Origin: Reichenbachiella carrageenanivorans
Lineage (GTDB): Bacteria > Bacteroidota > Bacteroidia > Cytophagales > Cyclobacteriaceae
DNA: 64,000 nucleotides
NCBI RefSeq assembly: GCF_025639805.1
Contig: NZ_CP106735.1
Span: 2,451,501 to 2,515,500, forward strand
Direction: 5' to 3'
The notes under the pieces are model-generated. The model was not told where the DNA came from and ran no database searches. It saw only the letters and a program-made list of their open reading frames with translations. Position 1 is the first letter of the stretch. Each line of letters starts with the position of its first letter. Shown one piece after another: positions 43,100-52,801 of this stretch. A program made the position numbers and the translations under genes.

Positions 43100-44782
43100 T
43101 TAACCTAGGTTGGTGATGTATGCATATAAATTTTCACCTTTTTCTAATCCTAGCTTTTTTCTTAGTCGATATCTAGCAATTCTTAGACTGTCATTGGAGA
43201 TGTTCATGATAGATGCTATTTCATGTGAATGCAAATTGGCATGTATCATTGCACAAAGTCTGACTTCGGAGTTGGTGAGACCAGGATGATTCTTCCTTAT
43301 GCGGTCGAAAAAACCCGTGTGAATCTGTTGGAAGATATTTTCAAATTCCTCCCAATCTTCGTCTAGGTTAAAATTCAGATCGATCGATCTTGTCAGTTTT
43401 CTTATTTTTTGATGAATATCTTCTTTTTCGCTTTTTTTAATCTTCTTTAGGTTGCTTCTTAGGCTTTCTAAAAATTCATTTTTTTGGATGATCTGTAGGG
43501 CAGATCTGCTCAGGGACTTGTTTTTCAACTCTAGTTCAAGTTGGAGTTTACTTTCTTCTAGGTGCTTGTTTTCAAGTTCTGTTTTCAGCTTTTCCTCATT
43601 CAATTGGGCATTGATCAGCTCTGCTTTGCTCAGTTCATTTTCCGTTTTTAGCAATTTTCTTTCTTTTCTGTTTTTAGCACCTCGCTGGCCAGACCCATAG
43701 ACGATGAGTATGATCAAAATGGCCGATGCGCCAAATCCAATAATGGTAATTTGTCGGTTGGACGCTCGTTCTTTTTCTAGCAAAGAGATGGTTTGCTGTT
43801 TTTGTTCTAAGTCAAATATCGTTTGGGCATTGGCAATCTCTTTGGCGATTTCTTTTCCAAAAATGACTTCGTTGAGTTCATAGCTTTGATTGAGATAGTG
43901 ATAAGCGCTATCGTATTGTTCACTGGCTAAGTAGTTTTTAGCCAGATCCCTTGCTGCGGATTGAATCTGGTAATCATTCTGTAGCAGCTTAGCTTCATTA
44001 TAGGCCTGCCGAGTATAGCGAAGAGCCGTGGAGAGTTGATTTCGTTTTCGGTAGGTGTCTCCTATGTTGTTGAGGTTTATGATGGCTTCGCTTGTGTTGG
44101 ATAGTGCTCTGTTGTAATCATAGGCTTTTTTGAAATTGACATAAGCTTCGTCAAAAGCTTCAAGGTCTTCATAGATACTTCCAATATTGTCGTAGATCAC
44201 AGCCAGTTCGGTAGAGTCTACATAAGTAGAAAAATATTCAAGGGCTTTTTGTTGATAAAAGAGCGCGGAATCATACTGCTTAGATTTTTCATATAGATGT
44301 CCTATGAGCCCAAAGACATGAGCTTCTCCTGAATCCAGGTTTTGTAAATTGTATAGCGAGCGAGCTCGTCGCAGGTGTATGAGGCCCTGGTTATAGTTTT
44401 CAGACCTAAGGTATACTTGCCCGATGAGGCTATTAGTTTCAGCCAAGTGGAGCTGGTCGTTGATTTGATTATAAGCGTGGATAGACTCATGGAGGTGCTT
44501 GATGGATAAGTCTAAGTTTCCGATTTTGTAAAATACTGCTCCGAGCAAGTGGCTGCTTCTGGCTAGCCCATAGTGATAGCCTAGCTCGCGAGATAGAATG
44601 AGGGCACGACGGGTAAAAAACAATGAACTATCGCTGGTGAATTCGGGATTGGATTCTACTTTCTTGAGCAGGGCGTCTATCGTGGCGTTACTTTTTATAT
44701 TGGAATCATTAGTCCTCAGTGAGCACCCAGAGAATAGCCAAGTGGCTATTCCTAAAATGGATAAGAAAGTACGTAGAGTCAT
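43100..44782 (-). CDS. TPR - membrane helix - LuxR-type HTH regulator
   Basis: 560 residues. A signal-like or lipoprotein N-terminus (FLSILGIATWLFSGCSL) is followed by about six TPR repeats (about 30-320; SIYEDLEAFDEAYVNFKKAYDYNRA). Then come one membrane helix (ITIIGFGASAILIILIVYGSG, about 350-370), a coiled coil (about 375-450) and a C-terminal helix-turn-helix of LuxR/GerE type (LTNSEVRLCAMIHANLHSHEIASIMNISNDSLRIARYRLRKKLGL). The topology is a periplasmic TPR sensor with a cytoplasmic DNA-binding domain, an architecture common beside TonB receptors in Bacteroidota. It lies upstream of, and on the same strand as, the phytase locus and may control it. Confidence 0.85.
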   Translation of the reverse strand: MTLRTFLSILGIATWLFSGCSLRTNDSNIKSNATIDALLKKVESNPEFTSDSSLFFTRRALILSRELGYHYGLARSSHLLGAVFYKIGNLDLSIKHLHESIHAYNQINDQLHLAETNSLIGQVYLRSENYNQGLIHLRRARSLYNLQNLDSGEAHVFGLIGHLYEKSKQYDSALFYQQKALEYFSTYVDSTELAVIYDNIGSIYEDLEAFDEAYVNFKKAYDYNRALSNTSEAIINLNNIGDTYRKRNQLSTALRYTRQAYNEAKLLQNDYQIQSAARDLAKNYLASEQYDSAYHYLNQSYELNEVIFGKEIAKEIANAQTIFDLEQKQQTISLLEKERASNRQITIIGFGASAILIILIVYGSGQRGAKNRKERKLLKTENELSKAELINAQLNEEKLKTELENKHLEESKLQLELELKNKSLSRSALQIIQKNEFLESLRSNLKKIKKSEKEDIHQKIRKLTRSIDLNFNLDEDWEEFENIFQQIHTGFFDRIRKNHPGLTNSEVRLCAMIHANLHSHEIASIMNISNDSLRIARYRLRKKLGLEKGENLYAYITNLG

Positions 44783-44924: not shown

Positions 44925-44950
44925 TGTGACTTTTATCAAATCTTGCGTCC
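44925..44950 (+). promoter_or_regulatory. ECF sigma promoter A (RMD1 gene)
   Basis: TGTGACTTTT (44925-44934), a 10-base spacer and GCGTCC (44945-44950, continuing AATGT). The CGTC at 44946-44949 is a typical ECF -10 element and the GTGACTTTT block a plausible -35. Transcription would begin near 44957, 18 bases before the ATG at 44975. It is nearly identical to promoter B. Confidence 0.7.
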
Positions 44951-44974
44951 AATGTCGAAAAAACTATTTGATGT

Positions 44975-45763
44975 ATGTCTGATTTGATAAATACACTAAA
45001 AGCGTTTCACATGCATAGTCCCATCAACCTTAAAGCCTGTAGAGTGGCGGTCGAAGAGGACTTGATTGAATCCAATTCTTTGGAATTGTTTTTTGGCTTG
45101 GGAACCAATAAGTATGGGTTGATTTTTAGTTATGGAGTGTTGGTCTTTTACAACTGTGGTCAGCAGGAGATTGACGCATTGTATACTAAACTAGGACTGA
45201 CCATAGCGGAGAAGGACAGTGATTTATACCAAGATGATTTTGGGATCAAACAGTCGGCAGGTGACTATCAAACTAGATTTGATCACATAGCCTTGCCAGA
45301 AATCAATGAGGCTGTTATACGCATAGCCATGCTAAATCTTGGGCAGAGTTTGGCACTCAAATATTATGATACCGTATCTCAGGATTTGCTCACTAGCGTG
45401 AGGGAATTCACGGCGCAGCTAGAGTCTAATGGACAATTGAAAATTGGTAGAAAAAGCATCCTGCGTTTCGTAGGCAAGGCCTTGAACACCCAAAACCGAA
45501 TAGCCGAAAACTTATACATTTTCGATGCACCTCCAGCCACATGGGAGAGCGAATATCTGGAAAAAGTAAACTTGTCATTGTCCAAGCATTTCGACCTGAG
45601 CACAAGGTATCGCTCGATCGATAGCACCTTCAAGATTATCAAAGACAACTTGTCTACCTACATGGATCTCTATCATCACAAAGAGAGCAGTAGACTAGAG
45701 TGGATTATCATTATTTTAATTTTGGTAGAGGTACTGGATACTTTTATTTCGAAGCTACTGTAG
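44975..45763 (+). CDS. RMD1/DUF155 family membrane protein
   Basis: 262 residues of the RMD1 (DUF155) family, a conserved protein known in yeast from meiotic division and vacuolar or mitochondrial contexts and of unknown bacterial role. Visible traits: ELFFGLGTNKYGLIFSYGVLVFYN, FDHIALPEINEAVIRIAMLNLGQSLALKYYD, KSILRFVGKALNTQNRIAENLYIFDAPPATWE in the conserved middle, and a C-terminal membrane anchor (LEWIIIILILVEVLDTFISKLL). A near-perfect ECF promoter lies directly upstream, so it is probably a target of the sigma factor encoded just downstream on the other strand. Confidence 0.85.
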   Translation: MSDLINTLKAFHMHSPINLKACRVAVEEDLIESNSLELFFGLGTNKYGLIFSYGVLVFYNCGQQEIDALYTKLGLTIAEKDSDLYQDDFGIKQSAGDYQTRFDHIALPEINEAVIRIAMLNLGQSLALKYYDTVSQDLLTSVREFTAQLESNGQLKIGRKSILRFVGKALNTQNRIAENLYIFDAPPATWESEYLEKVNLSLSKHFDLSTRYRSIDSTFKIIKDNLSTYMDLYHHKESSRLEWIIIILILVEVLDTFISKLL

Positions 45764-45793
45764 GGAAGGCTATGGCGCGTTTCGCTGTAGTGG

Positions 45794-46357
45794 TTATTTC
45801 TTTAGTTTCTGGTAAAGCTCATTGACATGCGTACGTGCTCGTTTTAGTCGCATTTTTACGGCGCTTTCAGAAAGACCCAAGCTTTGTTGAATGTCTTTGA
45901 TGGGGTGCTTCTCTTTGTATTTCAACAAGAGAAGCATTTTTTCCTCGGGAGAGATCAGCTCGAGCAGTTCTTCCAAGATCTGGATGGACAGAGCTTCGGG
46001 AATTTCGTCTACGCCTTCGATCATTTCGGCCACCTCATCGGCCATTTTTTCGGTAATTACTTTTAGGACTTGGCTTTTCTTGTTTTTTCGGAGATAGTCC
46101 ATGCAGGTGTTGTGCACGATGGCGAATAGCCAAGTAGAAAAACGGGCTTCTCCTCTAAAGTCTTTAAGTTTTAAAAATACCTTGATCAGTATTTCCTGAC
46201 ATAGGTCTTCGGCGGTGTCATCGTCCTTGACATAGCTCTTACATTTTTTTAGGATGGTTTGTTCGTGTCGCTCAGTCAGTAGGGAAAAATAAGTCAAGTT
46301 TCCTTCGGTCTGAAGGATGCTGATTAATGCCTCGTCTGAAATTTTTTTATCAATCAT
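45794..46357 (-). CDS. ECF-type RNA polymerase sigma factor
   Basis: 187 residues with the two ECF regions. Sigma-2 spans about 25-95: AEDLCQEILIKVFLKLKDFRGEARFSTWLFAIVHNTCMDYLR, the -10 reading helices. Sigma-4 spans about 125-180: LSIQILEELLELISPEEKMLLLLKYKEKHPIKDIQQSLGLSESAVKMRLKRA, the HTH that reads the -35. It is convergent with the RMD1 gene and divergent from the C39 peptidase gene. Both of those carry the same ECF-type promoter, which makes this sigma the obvious reader. No anti-sigma gene is adjacent. Its own promoter is not obvious; none of the two TGTGACTTTT boxes points toward it. Confidence 0.93.
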   Translation of the reverse strand: MIDKKISDEALISILQTEGNLTYFSLLTERHEQTILKKCKSYVKDDDTAEDLCQEILIKVFLKLKDFRGEARFSTWLFAIVHNTCMDYLRKNKKSQVLKVITEKMADEVAEMIEGVDEIPEALSIQILEELLELISPEEKMLLLLKYKEKHPIKDIQQSLGLSESAVKMRLKRARTHVNELYQKLKK

Positions 46358-46368
46358 GTAATGACTTG

Positions 46369-46398
46369 TGTGACTTTTCTAAAACCCTGCGTCCAATG
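46369..46398 (+). promoter_or_regulatory. ECF sigma promoter B (C39-RimK-GCS2-NFGase operon)
   Basis: TGTGACTTTT (46369-46378), 10 bases, GCGTCCAATG (46389-46398). The elements and spacing match promoter A exactly. The CGTC at 46390-46393 predicts transcription from about 46400, leaving a leader of about 29 bases before the ATG at 46429. That start site argues against the in-frame starts at 46327 and 46396. Confidence 0.72.
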
Positions 46399-46428: not shown

Positions 46429-47154
46429 ATGCAAACTGCGATTAAAGAAAAGATTTTGGATGTGAGCATCAAGGCACAGCCAAACGATGTCACCTGCGGG
46501 CCTACCTGTCTGCATGGGGTGTATAGCTATTACAAAGACGTCATTCCCTTGCACGAAGTCATCGAGCAGGTAGAACAGCTTTCTACGGGCGGCACGCTGG
46601 CCGTTTTGTTAGGTATTCATGCGCTAGACCGAGGCTATGATGCTACTATTTACACGTTCAATTTGCATGTGTTCGACCCTTCTTGGTTCAAAGGAAAGGT
46701 AGATCTAGTTCAAAAACTAGAAGCTCAAATGGCAGCCAAACCCGACAATGAAGTCTTGATAGCAGCAAGTCAAGCCTACCTTACTTTTTTGTCCTTGGGC
46801 GGAAAAATAAAATACGAAAGCCTGACACCTGCTTTGATTAGATCTTATCTGGCCAAGGATGTGCCGGTTTTGTCTGGGTTGAGTGCCACCTACTTGTATG
46901 ACAGCCCGCGCGAGATTGGCGATATAGAAGTACAATACGACGATATAAAGGGAGAACCTACAGGTCATTTTGTGATTCTGAATGGATACAACCCTGATAG
47001 CCGACAGGTCTACATTGCCGATCCTTTGAAGTACAATCCGATCAGCGACGAACAATATTATAAAGTGAGCTACCAAAAATTGATCACCTCGGTGATGCTA
47101 GGCGTAGTGACCTACGATGCCAATTTATTGATGATAGCTCCAAAAGAAAACTAA
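46429..47154 (+). CDS. Peptidase C39-like (papain-fold) protein
   Basis: 241 residues from the ATG at 46429, chosen because the upstream ECF promoter would start transcription after the two earlier in-frame ATGs. Cysteine peptidase fold of C39 type: Gln17 and Cys23 in AQPNDVTCGPTCLHGVY, His180 in GEPTGHFVILNGY and an Asp in YIADPL complete the expected triad. There is no signal peptide, membrane domain or ABC transporter part, unlike bacteriocin-processing C39 proteins. It may instead act as a transglutaminase-like or amidase enzyme in the cytoplasm. First of four genes with gaps of 3 bases, 1 base and an overlap, so certainly one operon. Confidence 0.8.
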   Translation: MQTAIKEKILDVSIKAQPNDVTCGPTCLHGVYSYYKDVIPLHEVIEQVEQLSTGGTLAVLLGIHALDRGYDATIYTFNLHVFDPSWFKGKVDLVQKLEAQMAAKPDNEVLIAASQAYLTFLSLGGKIKYESLTPALIRSYLAKDVPVLSGLSATYLYDSPREIGDIEVQYDDIKGEPTGHFVILNGYNPDSRQVYIADPLKYNPISDEQYYKVSYQKLITSVMLGVVTYDANLLMIAPKEN

Positions 47155-47157
47155 ACG

Positions 47158-48594
47158 ATGTCAAAACTAATTATTACAGAAAACCCTGAAAAATGGAGCT
47201 TGAGCTTCGAAGGCGTGACCGTGGTCACGCCCACGACTTACTTCGGCAATCCAGAATATCAGGCCAAAAAGTTTAAAATCATTAACCTCTGCAAATCGCA
47301 TCAATACCAAAGTGTAGGGTATTATGTGTCGCTGCTGGCAGAGGCGCGTGGGCACAAGGTCATCCCTGAGATTGCTACGTTGCAAGACTTTAGGTTTCCC
47401 TCGTTGATCAAAGATGATGCGGACGACTTCGAAGATCTCATCAACGAAAGTTTGAAAGGAATCAACGAAACCAAATTTACGATGAAGACCTTTTTGGGTT
47501 ATGCAGACGACCCTGCGTTTAGCAATTTGGGCGCATTGATTTTCAACTTGTTTCAAGTGCCAATCATTCAGGCTGTGTTTGAGAAGAAGGAGAAATGGCA
47601 GCTGAAATCACTGAAGACACTGCACCTCAATGAAGTGGCCGAGGAGGAATTTCCGATGTTGCAAAAGGCACTTCACTTCTATCTGATGGGCAAAAACGTG
47701 GTGCGCAAAAAGTATGCGCGTAAGAAGTATGACTTGGCTATTTTGCTCAGTCCAGACGATCCTACACCACCTTCTTGCCCGAAGGCAATTCAGAAATTTA
47801 TCTCAGAAGCAGAGAAAAAGGGGTTCAATGTGGAGATCATCACCAAAAACGATTTTGGTAAACTGGTGCAGTTCGATGCCTTACTTATTCGTGTGACCAC
47901 CAATGTGAACCATTATACCTATCGCTTTGCCAAGAAGGCAGAGTCTGAAGGCTTGGTGGTTTTTGATGATCCAAACTCTATACTGAAGTGCACCAATAAA
48001 GTGTACCTTCATGAACTGCTGGTGGCCAACAAAATCAAGGTGCCCAAGTCGCACATTTTGCGAAAGGATCATCAGGAGATCCCAAGCGAATTCAACTACC
48101 CGCTGGTGATCAAGCAGCCCGATGGTTCGTTTTCTAAAGGGGTGAAGAAAATCGCCAATGCGGAGGAATTGAAACCTGCATTGAAAGAGCTATTTAGCAA
48201 GTCAGAGCTTTTGATTCTGCAGGAGTTTGTCCCTACAGCTTACGACTGGAGAGTAGGAATCATCGATGGACAGCCGCTCTATGTGTGCAAATACTATATG
48301 GCACAAAATCATTGGCAGATCGTGGATTGGAAGAAGAATGGAGAGCATCGGGAGGGCAAGAGTGAAACACTCAAAGTGGAAGATGCACCTAAAAAATTAA
48401 TCGAAACAGCCTTGAAAGCTACTTCACTAATAGGCAAAGGTCTCTATGGTGTGGATATCAAAGAAATAGAAGGCGTCTTCTACGTGATAGAGGTCAATGA
48501 CAACCCGAGCATAGATGTGGGGGTGGAAGACAAAGTGCTGAAAAATCAGCTTTACGCTAAAATAATGGATACTTTTTTACAAAGATTGAATTGA
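47158..48594 (+). CDS. RimK-family ATP-grasp ligase
   Basis: 478 residues. The N-terminal half (about 1-185) is the extra domain of long RimK-like proteins (NLCKSHQYQSVGYYVSLLAEARGHKVIPEI). The C-terminal half (about 190-478) is the ATP-grasp fold: DDPNSILKCTNKVYLHELLVANKIKVPKS, the ATP-lysine region YPLVIKQPDGSFSKGVKKI, ILQEFVPTAYDWRVGIIDG, and the metal-binding GVDIKEIEGVFYVIEVNDNPSID. RimK-type ligases join amino acids through amide bonds to peptides or small acids. The substrate here is unknown. The gap to the C39 gene is three bases and to the GCS2 gene one base. Confidence 0.85.
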   Translation: MSKLIITENPEKWSLSFEGVTVVTPTTYFGNPEYQAKKFKIINLCKSHQYQSVGYYVSLLAEARGHKVIPEIATLQDFRFPSLIKDDADDFEDLINESLKGINETKFTMKTFLGYADDPAFSNLGALIFNLFQVPIIQAVFEKKEKWQLKSLKTLHLNEVAEEEFPMLQKALHFYLMGKNVVRKKYARKKYDLAILLSPDDPTPPSCPKAIQKFISEAEKKGFNVEIITKNDFGKLVQFDALLIRVTTNVNHYTYRFAKKAESEGLVVFDDPNSILKCTNKVYLHELLVANKIKVPKSHILRKDHQEIPSEFNYPLVIKQPDGSFSKGVKKIANAEELKPALKELFSKSELLILQEFVPTAYDWRVGIIDGQPLYVCKYYMAQNHWQIVDWKKNGEHREGKSETLKVEDAPKKLIETALKATSLIGKGLYGVDIKEIEGVFYVIEVNDNPSIDVGVEDKVLKNQLYAKIMDTFLQRLN

Positions 48595-48595
48595 G

Positions 48596-49852
48596 ATGAA
48601 CACGAGAATGCACCTGTTTCAGCGCTATGGAATAGAGCTGGAATACATGATTGTAGACAATGATACTTTGGCTATTCGGCCCATTACGGACGATTTGATC
48701 AAGAGCGTATTAGGAGCGTTTAGCAATGAAGTAGATCGTGGTTTGGTCACTTGGAGCAATGAATTGGTACTGCATGTGCTGGAGTTGAAATGCTCGAAGC
48801 CAGAGCTGGATTTGGTGGCTTTGGCCGAAGGATTTCAGCAAAACATTCGGGACATCAATAAAAAATTGATGGCTTTCAATGCGCGCTTGATGCCTACGGC
48901 GGCTCACCCTATGATGAACCCAGAGAAGGAGACCTTTTTGTGGCCACACGACAACAATGAAATATACGATATCTACAATCGCATTTTCAACTGCAAAGGC
49001 CACGGCTGGTCCAATCTACAAAGCACACACCTCAATTTGCCATTTTATGACGACGAGGAGTTTGCACGTTTGCATGCCGCAGTGCGGTTGATTTTGCCCA
49101 TTTTGCCAGCGATAGCGGCCAGTTCACCTGTGCTAGACGGCGCTGCCACAGGTTATCTCGATAAGCGTTTGGACTATTATCAATCCAATCAAAAAGTGAT
49201 TCCTGAGCTTACTGGTAAGGTCATTCCTGAAAGGGCTTTTTCTAAGCGACATTATCACAAAATGATCTATGAGCCGATTCAAGCGGCTGTAGCACCTTAC
49301 GATGAGCAGCATATTTTAGAGCCTGTATGGCTCAACTCCCGAGGGGCGATTGCACGCTTCGATCGTGGGTCTATAGAGATAAGACTGCTGGATATACAGG
49401 AATGTCCGAAGGCGGATATGGCTATCGTAGCGTTGATTATTGGTGTACTCAAGGTACTGGCAGCAGAGGTCACTTGTAGCGCCCATGAGCAGCAAACTTG
49501 GTTAGTTGCTCCGCTCAGCAAGATTTTTCAGCAGACTATAGTGACTGCTGAAAACACGGTGATAGCCGACGCTGCCTACTTGCAAGTTTTTGGGATGACG
49601 CAAGAGCAGGCTACAGCCAAGGAACTGTGGGTGCATTTGCTAGAGCTGGTCAAGGTGCACCATCCGGTGTTTATAGGGCCATGGCTGGATACGCTTCATC
49701 AGATCTTAGAAGGAGGCACTTTGGCTTCGCGAATATTGACTGCACTCGATGGGATCTATACCGAAGACAATATCAAATTGGTCTATAATGAGTTGGCGGA
49801 TTGTTTGTCTAACAATGAAATTTTTGAGTCATGCGTAAAAGAAAAATTATAA
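48596..49852 (+). CDS. GCS2-type carboxylate-amine ligase
   Basis: 418 residues of the glutamate-cysteine ligase 2 (YbdK-like) fold, related to glutamine synthetase. It activates a carboxylate with ATP and joins it to an amine. Visible segments: QRYGIELEYMIVDNDTL (metal-binding Glu residues at the start), LMPTAAHPMMNPEKETFLWPHDNNEIYDIYNRIFNCKGHGWSNLQSTHLNLPF, PILPAIAASSPVLDGAATGYLDKRLDYY and SIEIRLLDIQECPKADMAI. It follows the RimK-like gene after one base and overlaps the next gene by 22 bases. The presence of two different amide-forming enzymes in one operon is the key feature. Confidence 0.85.
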   Translation: MNTRMHLFQRYGIELEYMIVDNDTLAIRPITDDLIKSVLGAFSNEVDRGLVTWSNELVLHVLELKCSKPELDLVALAEGFQQNIRDINKKLMAFNARLMPTAAHPMMNPEKETFLWPHDNNEIYDIYNRIFNCKGHGWSNLQSTHLNLPFYDDEEFARLHAAVRLILPILPAIAASSPVLDGAATGYLDKRLDYYQSNQKVIPELTGKVIPERAFSKRHYHKMIYEPIQAAVAPYDEQHILEPVWLNSRGAIARFDRGSIEIRLLDIQECPKADMAIVALIIGVLKVLAAEVTCSAHEQQTWLVAPLSKIFQQTIVTAENTVIADAAYLQVFGMTQEQATAKELWVHLLELVKVHHPVFIGPWLDTLHQILEGGTLASRILTALDGIYTEDNIKLVYNELADCLSNNEIFESCVKEKL

Positions 49853-50538
49853 TCACGTGTGAACATGGGGGCAACTATATTCCACGTGAGTACAAATACC
49901 TGTTCGCAGCCCATGAGAAGGAGCTGAGTTCTCACAAGGGATGGGATATTGGTGCCTTAGAAGTGGCCAAGTACTTATCTCGGCACATTCCAGCACCGCT
50001 GTCGTATCAGCGGGTATCTCGACTATTGGTAGAAACGAACAGGTCTCTTCATAGTGATGAGCTGTTTTCTAAATATGCACATGAACTTGACAAGCCGATC
50101 AAGAAGTATATTTTGAATAAGTTTTACTATCCCTACCGCAATGCGGTGGAGAAAAACTTGGCAAAGTATATCGCCGAAGGGCATGAGGTGCTTCATCTCT
50201 CTGTGCACAGTTTTACTCCCGTATTGAATGGTATAGAACGTCAGGTAGATATTGGATTGCTTTGTGATGAGTCGCGCTGGCTGGAGTTGGAGTTTTGCCA
50301 AATGTGGCAAGCACAGATACAACAATTACTACCCGAGAAGCTAACTATGATCAATGTGCCGTACAACGGCGCAGATGATGGGTTTACTACTTATTTGAGA
50401 GAAAAATTTCCTGTAGAAAAATATATGGGAATTGAAATTGAGATCAACCAGAAATATGCAGGCACTGAGGATCAGTCGGTGATCAGGTCTGTGTTAGCCA
50501 ATAGCTTGGTGATTTCGGAGAATTTAGTAGCAGAATAG
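49831..50538 (+). CDS. N-formylglutamate amidohydrolase-like protein
   Basis: 235 residues of the HutG/N-formylglutamate amidohydrolase family (zinc amidase). Typical opening IITCEHGGNYIPREYKYLF, followed by SHKGWDIGALEVAKYLS, VSRLLVETNRSLHSDELFS and HLSVHSFTPVLNGIERQVDIGLLCDE. The histidine and glutamate metal ligands of the family are present. In this context histidine breakdown is unlikely; no hut genes are nearby. It probably cleaves an N-acyl or gamma-linked amide made by the two ligases. Last gene of the operon, overlapping the GCS2 gene by 22 bases and followed by a strong terminator. Confidence 0.85.
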   Translation: MRKRKIIITCEHGGNYIPREYKYLFAAHEKELSSHKGWDIGALEVAKYLSRHIPAPLSYQRVSRLLVETNRSLHSDELFSKYAHELDKPIKKYILNKFYYPYRNAVEKNLAKYIAEGHEVLHLSVHSFTPVLNGIERQVDIGLLCDESRWLELEFCQMWQAQIQQLLPEKLTMINVPYNGADDGFTTYLREKFPVEKYMGIEIEINQKYAGTEDQSVIRSVLANSLVISENLVAE

Positions 50539-50624: not shown

Positions 50625-51845
50625 TTATGATAGCTTAAATGTAATAGGTAAAATCATTTTCACTTTTACCGAATTGCCTTCTATTTTTCCTGGTGCCCAG
50701 TTGGTAGCTTCTTTTATGATACGAATGACTTCTTCGTCGCAGCCTGCACCTATGCCTTTTAGTACTGTAGGATCAGTGAGTTTTCCTGATTCATCTACGA
50801 CAAATTGGACGAAAACACGGCCTTCTACTCCAGCCTCCTTGGCTTGTACTGGATATTTCATATTTTGACCAACCCATTCGTAGAAGCTTGGCATGCCACC
50901 TCTAGGCATGGGGAGATCCTCCACTTTGTCGAATATTTCATCAGCATATGTGGAAATCGTCTGAGCCGCTTCGATATCACTCTGATCACTCAATTCCTGA
51001 TTGATGTCTTCGCATCCAAACACAAGGACTAAAGCGAGGCCAAGTGTAAAAGGTAATATTTGTTTGATTTTCATAGTTTGTTTATTTTGTTGATTTATCA
51101 TTTTTATTCTATTCAATATGGAAGAGTTGTAAAAGGAGTGTGCCAACTCAAACCCATGAATTTTCAAGGTGTGAACCGCGAGGATTTGTATATAATGATC
51201 TTTGTCATGTGCATGCACGGCTTGGGCATCCGCCAAATATTCATGGTTGACTCGAGCCATTTTTTTTATGAAGTATAGTATTGGGTTGATCCAAAGTAGC
51301 GCACTGATGATCTCTAAAAAGAGAATGTCTATTGAGTGCATTTCACCTGCATGAACCTTTTCGTGTGACAAAATCAGTTCCTTTTCTCTTGTCTGCAAAT
51401 CATCGCCAATGAAGATGGTATTTACGAAAGTGTACGCCTCTCGGCTGTTGGGCAAAGTGCAGAGTCTATAGTCTCCATACAACTCTGCCGTACGACTCAT
51501 CACCCACAGTCCCATCGCTTTGGATACGACCCTGATCAACAAACCAGTAGCTATGAGTATATAGATGGTACTGAGTAGCTCCACGCTACTGAAGGCTCCT
51601 GTAGTACTTTCAGTATTAGAAATTTCTAAAGCATCCAATGTAATCGTGCCTACTGCTAGTGGCGAGGGTATTGAGTTGATACTCAGGTGGAGTAGAGGGA
51701 CAATTAGTGAAAATACTACACTTGCGAGGAGATAAAATCTATTAAATGAAAAGGCTTTTTCCTGCCGCAAGGCCAAAAGAAAGAAAAGGGAAAGCACGGC
51801 CAAGCAAAGGCCCGATTCTAGGAAGTAATTGAATACATTATTCAT
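50625..51845 (-). CDS. BlaR1/M56 metallopeptidase fused to a TonB C-terminal domain
   Basis: 406 residues. Membrane helices at about 8-26, 36-55 and 90-112 frame an M56 zinc-peptidase domain with HEKVH (161-165). A fourth hydrophobic segment lies near 270-278. The C-terminal 90 residues form a TonB-C domain (GVEGRVFVQFVVDESGKLTDPTVLKGIGAGCDEEVIRIIKEA). M56 proteins of the BlaR1 type sense an envelope signal and cleave the BlaI-type repressor. Here the usual beta-lactam sensor is replaced by a TonB-C domain, a pattern found in Bacteroidota. It overlaps the upstream blaI-like gene by 8 bases on the same strand. Confidence 0.88.
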   Translation of the reverse strand: MNNVFNYFLESGLCLAVLSLFFLLALRQEKAFSFNRFYLLASVVFSLIVPLLHLSINSIPSPLAVGTITLDALEISNTESTTGAFSSVELLSTIYILIATGLLIRVVSKAMGLWVMSRTAELYGDYRLCTLPNSREAYTFVNTIFIGDDLQTREKELILSHEKVHAGEMHSIDILFLEIISALLWINPILYFIKKMARVNHEYLADAQAVHAHDKDHYIQILAVHTLKIHGFELAHSFYNSSILNRIKMINQQNKQTMKIKQILPFTLGLALVLVFGCEDINQELSDQSDIEAAQTISTYADEIFDKVEDLPMPRGGMPSFYEWVGQNMKYPVQAKEAGVEGRVFVQFVVDESGKLTDPTVLKGIGAGCDEEVIRIIKEATNWAPGKIEGNSVKVKMILPITFKLS

Positions 51846-52215
51846 CGTTGGAGGTTTTAGTGTCTTTTTTTGCGATTTCGATGAGCTGGTTTAGCTCGTT
51901 GATGTTTAGGTCGTTTTCCTTGGCAAAGAAGGAAACGAGATTTTTGAATGAGCCTCCAAAGTAGCTGTCCATGAAGTTGGATAGATAGAATTTGGAGTAG
52001 TCTTTCTTCGCTATCAGAGGGAAGTATTCATGGGTTTTGCCATAGGCTTTGTGATCTGCAAATTTTTTGGTCTCTAGTATCCTTACAATCGTAGATACTG
52101 TATTGTAGGCTGGTTTAGGGTCTGGTAACTTGGCAATGATGTCGTGCACCACACCTCGCTCTATTTCCCATAAGGCCTTCATTACTTGCTCTTCTGCTTT
52201 GGTCAGTTCTTTCAT
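51838..52215 (-). CDS. BlaI/MecI/CopY family repressor
   Basis: 125-residue winged-helix repressor (MKELTKAEEQVMKALWEIERGVVHDIIAKL, then AYNTVSTIVRILETKKFADHKAYGKTHEYFPLI). The C-terminal dimerisation helices are where BlaR1-type peptidases cleave. A 20-bp palindrome at 52241-52260 fills the spacer of its own promoter and is the likely operator. It forms a sensor-repressor pair with the following M56-TonB gene. The controlled envelope genes beyond this operon are unknown. Confidence 0.92.
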   Translation of the reverse strand: MKELTKAEEQVMKALWEIERGVVHDIIAKLPDPKPAYNTVSTIVRILETKKFADHKAYGKTHEYFPLIAKKDYSKFYLSNFMDSYFGGSFKNLVSFFAKENDLNINELNQLIEIAKKDTKTSNDE

Positions 52216-52233
52216 AGTTTTCTAATTACATTC

Positions 52234-52264
52234 TAAATGTATAACTAAATATTTAGTTATGCAA
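52234..52264 (-). promoter_or_regulatory. BlaI operator inside its own promoter
   Basis: Perfect 20-bp palindrome ATAACTAAAT/ATTTAGTTAT at 52241-52260. On the minus strand it fills the 20-base spacer between a -33 TTG (52264-52262) and a -7-like TACATTTA (52241-52234). Repressor binding would directly block RNA polymerase. A related ACTAAATAGT lies near 52282. Confidence 0.75.
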
Positions 52265-52337
52265 CTATTTTTAGAGTCATAAAACTAAATAGTCGGGTTT
52301 TTGCGAGGAGGAGTGGATAAAGAATCTATATTTTAAA

Positions 52338-52367
52338 TGCAATGACATTGCAAATTGGCTATCTTTG
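52338..52367 (+). promoter_or_regulatory. Zur-like operator and -7 box of the Fur-family gene
   Basis: Palindrome TGCAAT-GAC-ATTGCA at 52338-52352, then TATCTTTG (52360-52367), a perfect TAnnTTTG element, five bases before the ATG at 52373. The operator has the same arms and spacing as that at 55182-55196. Transcription would start at or near the ATG, so a leaderless mRNA is likely. Confidence 0.7.
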
Positions 52368-52372
52368 CACTT

Positions 52373-52801
52373 ATGGAAACGAAAGGACGAAAAGAAATAC
52401 TTAAAAGGCATGGCATGCGAGTGACCGACTGTCGATTAGACGTGCTCGATTTGTTTATCAATAGTAGACAGGCGCTGTCTCAAAAAGATCTCGAAGAAAA
52501 ACTCACCGCATACGATAGAGTCACACTCTATCGTACATTGCACAGCTTTCTTGAAAGCGGAGTACTACACAAAATTCCTAATGATAACGGTATAGCTTCT
52601 TATGGTGTATGTTTTGATACATGCAGCCCTTCGGAGCATCATCATGATCATCTACACTTCAAGTGCAATTCATGCGGCCAGTTGGAGTGTATAGAAGAGG
52701 CCATTACTTTGCCTGCTATCCACTTACCCCAGCATTATCAGTTAGGTGCTGTAGATATCATCGTGAATGGCGTCTGTGGGGCGTGCATTGTGGAGGCTTG
52801 A
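52373..52801 (+). CDS. Fur-family metal regulator, probably Zur-like
   Basis: 142 residues from the ATG at 52373; an in-frame TTG six codons upstream lies inside the -7 element. The N-terminal winged helix (EILKRHGMRVTDCRLDVLDLF) includes the recognition helix region YDRVTLYRTLHSFLESG. The C-terminal dimer domain has a histidine-rich metal segment (SEHHHDHLHF) and structural zinc cysteines (CNSCG and CGAC). Zur is favoured over Fur by the target genes (a TonB receptor and a His-rich DUF4625 lipoprotein) and by the TGCAAT-N3-ATTGCA palindrome before itself and before the lipoprotein. It is autoregulated by inference. The TonB receptor follows after 4 bases. Confidence 0.85.
   Translation: METKGRKEILKRHGMRVTDCRLDVLDLFINSRQALSQKDLEEKLTAYDRVTLYRTLHSFLESGVLHKIPNDNGIASYGVCFDTCSPSEHHHDHLHFKCNSCGQLECIEEAITLPAIHLPQHYQLGAVDIIVNGVCGACIVEA

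Follow-up and report, generated by a model that had tools for sequence, protein, structure and literature searches.

The window analysed in the present study is a stretch of 64,000 nucleotides from Reichenbachiella carrageenanivorans (contig NZ_CP106735.1, positions 2,451,501 to 2,515,500 of the forward strand). At the locus of interest, an ECF sigma factor gene lies between a gene of the RMD1 (DUF155) family and an operon that begins with a C39-like peptidase gene, and each of these two units is preceded by a copy of the same short, putative promoter element. The features, in coordinates of the window, are as follows.

43100-44782, minus strand: TPR protein, divergent from RMD1, with a weak C-terminal LuxR-type match (GerE, below cut-off)
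44926..44949, plus strand: predicted Promoter A, before RMD1 (GTGAC 44926-44930, 15-base spacer, CGTC 44946-44949)
44975..45763, plus strand: RMD1, a DUF155 (RMND1/Sif2) protein of 262 aa (PF02582, E 1.1e-27)
45794..46357, minus strand: ECF sigma factor of 187 aa (Sigma70 domains, TIGR02937)
46370..46393, plus strand: predicted Promoter B, before C39 (GTGAC 46370-46374, 15-base spacer, CGTC 46390-46393)
46429..47154, plus strand: C39-like cysteine peptidase of 241 aa, first gene of the operon (PF13529, E 3.3e-9)
47158..48594, plus strand: RimK-like ATP-grasp ligase with an RLAN N-terminal domain (PF14401, E 1.2e-41; PF08443, E 9.3e-13)
48596..49852, plus strand: GCS2 family carboxylate-amine ligase (PF04107, E 3.6e-23)
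49831..50538, plus strand: N-formylglutamate amidohydrolase (NFGase) family protein (PF05013, E 1.1e-18)
50625-52801 (by eye): BlaR1/M56-like membrane protein and BlaI-like repressor (minus strand), then a Fur-like regulator (plus strand)

The identities RMD1, C39, RimK, GCS2 and NFGase, assigned in a preliminary description made from the sequence alone, were all confirmed by these domain matches. RMD1 has a hydrophobic C-terminal segment (by eye). Comparison of RMD1 and C39 with solved structures gave nothing significant, and to our knowledge the bacterial role of the DUF155/RMD1 family is unclear. The proposed C39 start at 46429 is supported, because the upstream in-frame ATG at 46396 falls within the promoter element and the C39 orthologs start at a Met aligned with 46429.

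The protein encoded between the two sites, for which an ECF-type sigma factor had been claimed, does carry Sigma-70 regions 2 and 4 (Sigma70_r2, PF04542, residues 28-94, E 1.2e-17; Sigma70_r4_2, PF08281, residues 126-177, E 1.6e-10) and scores above the cut-off of TIGR02937. The structures nearest to the profile of its orthologs included SigW (5wuq, E 9e-21) and RpoE (1or7, E 4e-17), and no NCBIfam equivalog reached its cut-off among the best 25 of 88 models (sigma_PG0214 gave 80 bits against a cut-off of 130). A phage origin was rejected, the phage matches being at most 38.4% identical among those listed.

The sigma gene and RMD1 are convergent, the sigma gene and C39 divergent, and 71 bases separate the starts of the latter two. 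Since it is read from the minus strand, neither of the plus-strand sites can be its own promoter, and GTGAC-N14..16-CGTC was also absent before the sigma gene in 24 adjacent loci and in L211-L213. Autoregulation via the element was therefore rejected; ECF sigma genes are commonly, but not universally, preceded by a promoter of their own. Neither the orientation of the gene nor the absence of an element before it had been mentioned in the preliminary description. Anti-sigma families gave no match among the six window neighbours scanned (the TPR/LuxR-like protein, RMD1, C39, RimK, GCS2 and NFGase), and in other genomes the neighbours were inspected for anti-sigma genes by eye only. A cognate anti-sigma factor encoded nearby is common for ECF sigmas and rare in Bacteroidetes. 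According to the part of the survey that bears on this phylum, a gene with a class I anti-sigma domain lies nearby in only 6% of Bacteroidetes ECFs (PMC7406223), and the Reichenbachiella sigma fits this pattern.

The element itself, TGTGACTTTT-N10-GCGTCCAATG, occurs exactly at 44925-44954 and at 46369-46398, both on the plus strand and with 0 mismatches over 30 bases, so that the near-identical pair reported before RMD1 and C39 was recovered in full. No match of the 30-base pattern with up to three mismatches appeared in any of 100 dinucleotide-preserving shuffles of the window. A genome-wide search, which had been suggested as a check, found exact matches of TGTGACTTTTN10GCGTC in the 4.81 Mb genome at these two sites only; at up to two mismatches there were 12 matches (the two sites and 10 others) against 6 for the reversed-pattern control. 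Likewise, the core GTGACTTTN{12,13}CGTC was exact genome-wide only at the two sites (control 1), and GTGACTTTN12CGTCNNA with one mismatch gave 5 extra matches against 10 in the control.

Comparison of 51 distinct sites, of which three come from genomes without a sigma ortholog (two in L131, one in L171), yielded the consensus GTGACTTT-N12/13-CGTCnnA. The gap between GTGAC and CGTC was 15 bases in 39 of 53 sites and 16 bases in the other 14. Because the search pattern fixes GTGAC and CGTC, these letters are conserved by construction, and the independent sequence evidence consists of two features outside the pattern: the TTT following GTGAC, kept letter by letter in 45, 48 and 46 of the 51 sites, and an A three bases past CGTC, present in 49 of them. 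The rest of the spacer and the flanks are mostly near background. Both copies of the 20-letter element originally proposed are real, whereas the conserved part turned out to be shorter than 20 letters.

The occurrence of the element was then set against that of the sigma gene in other genomes. C39 was found in 129 of 390 genomes of the family, and upstream regions were taken from 93; together with the window and one locus of another family (L347), these make up a comparison table of 95 rows. The 35 C39 genomes outside the table belong in many cases to genus g18, and some are fragments. A sigma ortholog, sought genome-wide in 80 genomes, was present in 28 at E ≤ 1.8e-54 (at least 52% identity), and the next tier begins at E 6e-37 (at most 43% identity). 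GTGAC-N14..16-CGTC stood within 250 bases before C39 in 28/28 ortholog-bearing genomes of the table (27 from the family, plus G398 of family f10) against 1/49 without the ortholog, these being the 77 tabulated genomes for which both facts are known; the comparison leaves out 18 of the 95 rows that have no genome-wide sigma assessment, all of which lack the element. One of the genomes outside the table, G166, has both ortholog and element and agrees. Fisher's test gave p 3.7e-20, a value that ignores kinship and is weakened by it, since few contrasts are independent on the tree: the C39 tree has 5 sigma changes and 4 motif changes, with 2 independent pairs on well-supported branches, and in paired contrasts the motif changed the same way 1.8 times and the opposite way 0.0 times on average (sign test not significant).

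The predicted element also follows the ortholog where the two are apart. In three genomes (G118, G175 and G246), the ortholog sits at another locus whose 3.5 kb contain no element, yet the element before C39 is kept. RMD1 was seen apart from the sigma gene in two genomes. In G107, where 2.56 Mb of contig separate the two (about 1.6 Mb by the shorter route, should the contig be circular), RMD1 still has TGTGACTTTT..CGTC beginning 41 bases upstream of its start; in G218, which has the ortholog, the element before RMD1 is missing. Overall, RMD1 was located in 15 genomes with the ortholog, and the element precedes it in 14 of these. In the close relative Reichenbachiella faecimaris DSM 26133 (sigma 90% identical), both elements are present, and the locus of another family, L347, has the order RMD1-sigma-C39 with both elements. 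The coupling of this putative promoter to the ortholog thus extends across genera and to one other family.

From these data, it is very probable that the ECF sigma reads both promoters, with RMD1 and the C39-RimK-GCS2-NFGase operon as its two targets. This proposal of the preliminary description has gained support from the comparison between genomes with and without the ortholog, from the genomes with a displaced ortholog or a displaced RMD1, and from the other family. An alternative in which a different ECF sigma from the same genome recognises the two sites, the neighbouring one being a passenger, is improbable. The genome does contain 15 further sigma-like matches; 13 of these genes as examined, however, have no GTGAC..CGTC in their 2 kb stretch, and the element tracks the presence of this particular ortholog, even where it is not adjacent. 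The same alternative draws on more distant sigmas: those of G025 and G183 adjoin GTGACTTT..CGTC, so the specificity may be common to a wider clade, and G087, with no closer sigma relative than one of 37%, carries the element upstream of C39 along with six further exact sites (control 1). The exception may be due to this relative or to a missing contig. The 43-50% relatives in families f15 and f19 (5 loci) and the g64 sigmas beside RMD1 had no element.

It is still less likely that the repeat is a transcription factor binding site or some other DNA or RNA element. Its two blocks, with their fixed gap of 15 or 16 bases and the CGTC block, resemble the -35/-10 pair of an ECF promoter; it sits just upstream of gene starts, as a promoter would; and it accompanies a sigma gene. 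The near-identical copies are only 1.44 kb apart, which might suggest a chance repeat or a recent local duplication, but the probability of such an origin is negligible: the spacers and flanks of the two copies differ, the shuffled windows gave no match, and the pair is kept in other genera amid diverged surroundings, so that the comparative data contradict it.

The regulon predicted for this sigma is small. In three Reichenbachiella genomes (that of the window, G000, and G149 and G150), zero-mismatch sites occurred only before RMD1 and before C39, and for this reason RMD1 and the C39-RimK-GCS2-NFGase operon are taken as the whole predicted regulon; the suggestion that it could be read from the sequence held in all three. 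A wider regulon in this genome was rejected, as the extra one-mismatch sites (5, 3 and 3 in G000, G149 and G150) did not exceed the controls (10, 7 and 4) and none was common to the three species. In other lineages, additional candidates were detected. In seven genomes of genus g37 (L099-L105), a third element lies near the RMD1 element on the opposite strand; it faces a small secreted protein in 4/7, the one scanned being PepSY-like, and in the remaining 3/7 no ORF turned up within 200 bases. The gene of a coiled-coil lipoprotein is preceded by the element in G107, G231 and G398 (L106, L109 and L388), which represent two families, at different gene positions; the lipoproteins of G107 and G398 are 32% identical (E 5e-26).

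RMD1 and the operon are linked with or without the sigma gene. Direct adjacency, with fewer than 150 bases from the end of RMD1 to C39, was seen in 27 genomes whose region lacks a sigma gene; 12 genomes have the sigma gene in between, and 13 have an adjacent sigma gene but no RMD1 in the region. The C39 tree, with its poorly resolved base, favours neither the entry of the sigma gene into an older operon nor its loss from between the two halves. A role of RMD1 as the regulator of the sigma was rejected, because 15 of the 28 ortholog-bearing genomes of the family gave no DUF155 match (13 when G166, in which the gene is partly masked, and G069, which is 81% complete, are set aside).

In the proposed mechanism, the ECF sigma would direct RNA polymerase to promoters of the form GTGACTTT-N12/13-CGTCnnA. 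Two such promoters are predicted in Reichenbachiella, upstream of RMD1 (DUF155) and of the C39-RimK-GCS2-NFGase operon respectively, and both units would be switched on together. As the sigma gene lies between the units on the other strand, each unit has its own promoter copy. Binding to both promoters, and transcription from them, by this sigma is what we infer from the sequence data. It is possible, though rather doubtful, that the whole arrangement serves as a dedicated switch for a glutamate-conjugate pathway in envelope or osmotic stress, in which the sigma gene, wedged between RMD1 and the peptidase-ligase-amidohydrolase operon, would keep both co-expressed via the promoter copies, with the C39 operon as the fixed target and the others (RMD1, the PepSY-like secreted protein and the coiled-coil lipoprotein) varying by lineage. 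Synthesis or trimming of a glutamate-type peptide or conjugate by the operon under such stress is a guess.

ECF sigmas typically use a CGTC-type -10 and a GAC-type (AAC/GAC) -35. The Reichenbachiella element has both in common with what this habit implies for SigW of Bacillus subtilis and RpoE of Escherichia coli (ECF, or group IV, sigma factors), whose sigma regions 2 and 4 are also found here. Unlike SigW and RpoE, the Reichenbachiella sigma has no GTGAC..CGTC element of its own and no neighbour in the window that was recognised as an anti-sigma, and its predicted regulon comprises two promoters only. It also differs from the Bacteroidetes ECFs without a neighbouring class I anti-sigma, as far as these are described in the relevant part of PMC7406223, in that its targets are predictable, with no equivalog above cut-off among the best 25 NCBIfam models. 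The system is well supported as an unusually legible new case among the ECF sigmas.

In the open-access literature searched, no publication was recognised that treats this sigma, its promoter or the C39-RimK-GCS2-NFGase operon. The nearest likeness is offered by the rim and rlo loci of Pseudomonas, which, in the portion of the source that deals with them, place the genes of a protease and an ATP-grasp ligase side by side and act in ribosome modification and osmotic tolerance (PMC12239564). The pairing of protease and ATP-grasp ligase recurs in the C39-RimK operon. In contrast to the rim and rlo loci as presented in that portion, the Reichenbachiella operon combines a C39-like cysteine peptidase with RLAN-RimK, GCS2 and NFGase, is tied to an ECF sigma and contains neither an aspartic protease gene nor a transglutaminase-like one.

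In this system, the genes controlled by an uncharacterised ECF sigma would be predictable from DNA. Moreover, DUF155/RMD1 is tied to the C39-RimK-GCS2-NFGase operon in two ways, by shared promoter copies with the sigma gene between them and by direct adjacency without it, so that the functions of both can be tested together.

Several observations concern the more distant sigmas. In two Spirosomataceae-type loci (L291 and L292), with 35-36% sigma relatives, GTGACTTT..CGTC lies 1575 bases past the sigma start in both and precedes homologous-looking proteins of 326 aa. In L390 of G087, one of the 7 exact core sites (control 1) stands before a SET-domain gene that follows the C39 operon, with genes for a retropepsin-like Zn_protease, a RimK-like protein (by eye) and an AstE/AspA protein following nearby. 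Genes for MscS-like mechanosensitive channels lie beside distant sigma relatives in G087 and G025 (L389 and L391), a mere hint towards an osmotic or envelope theme.
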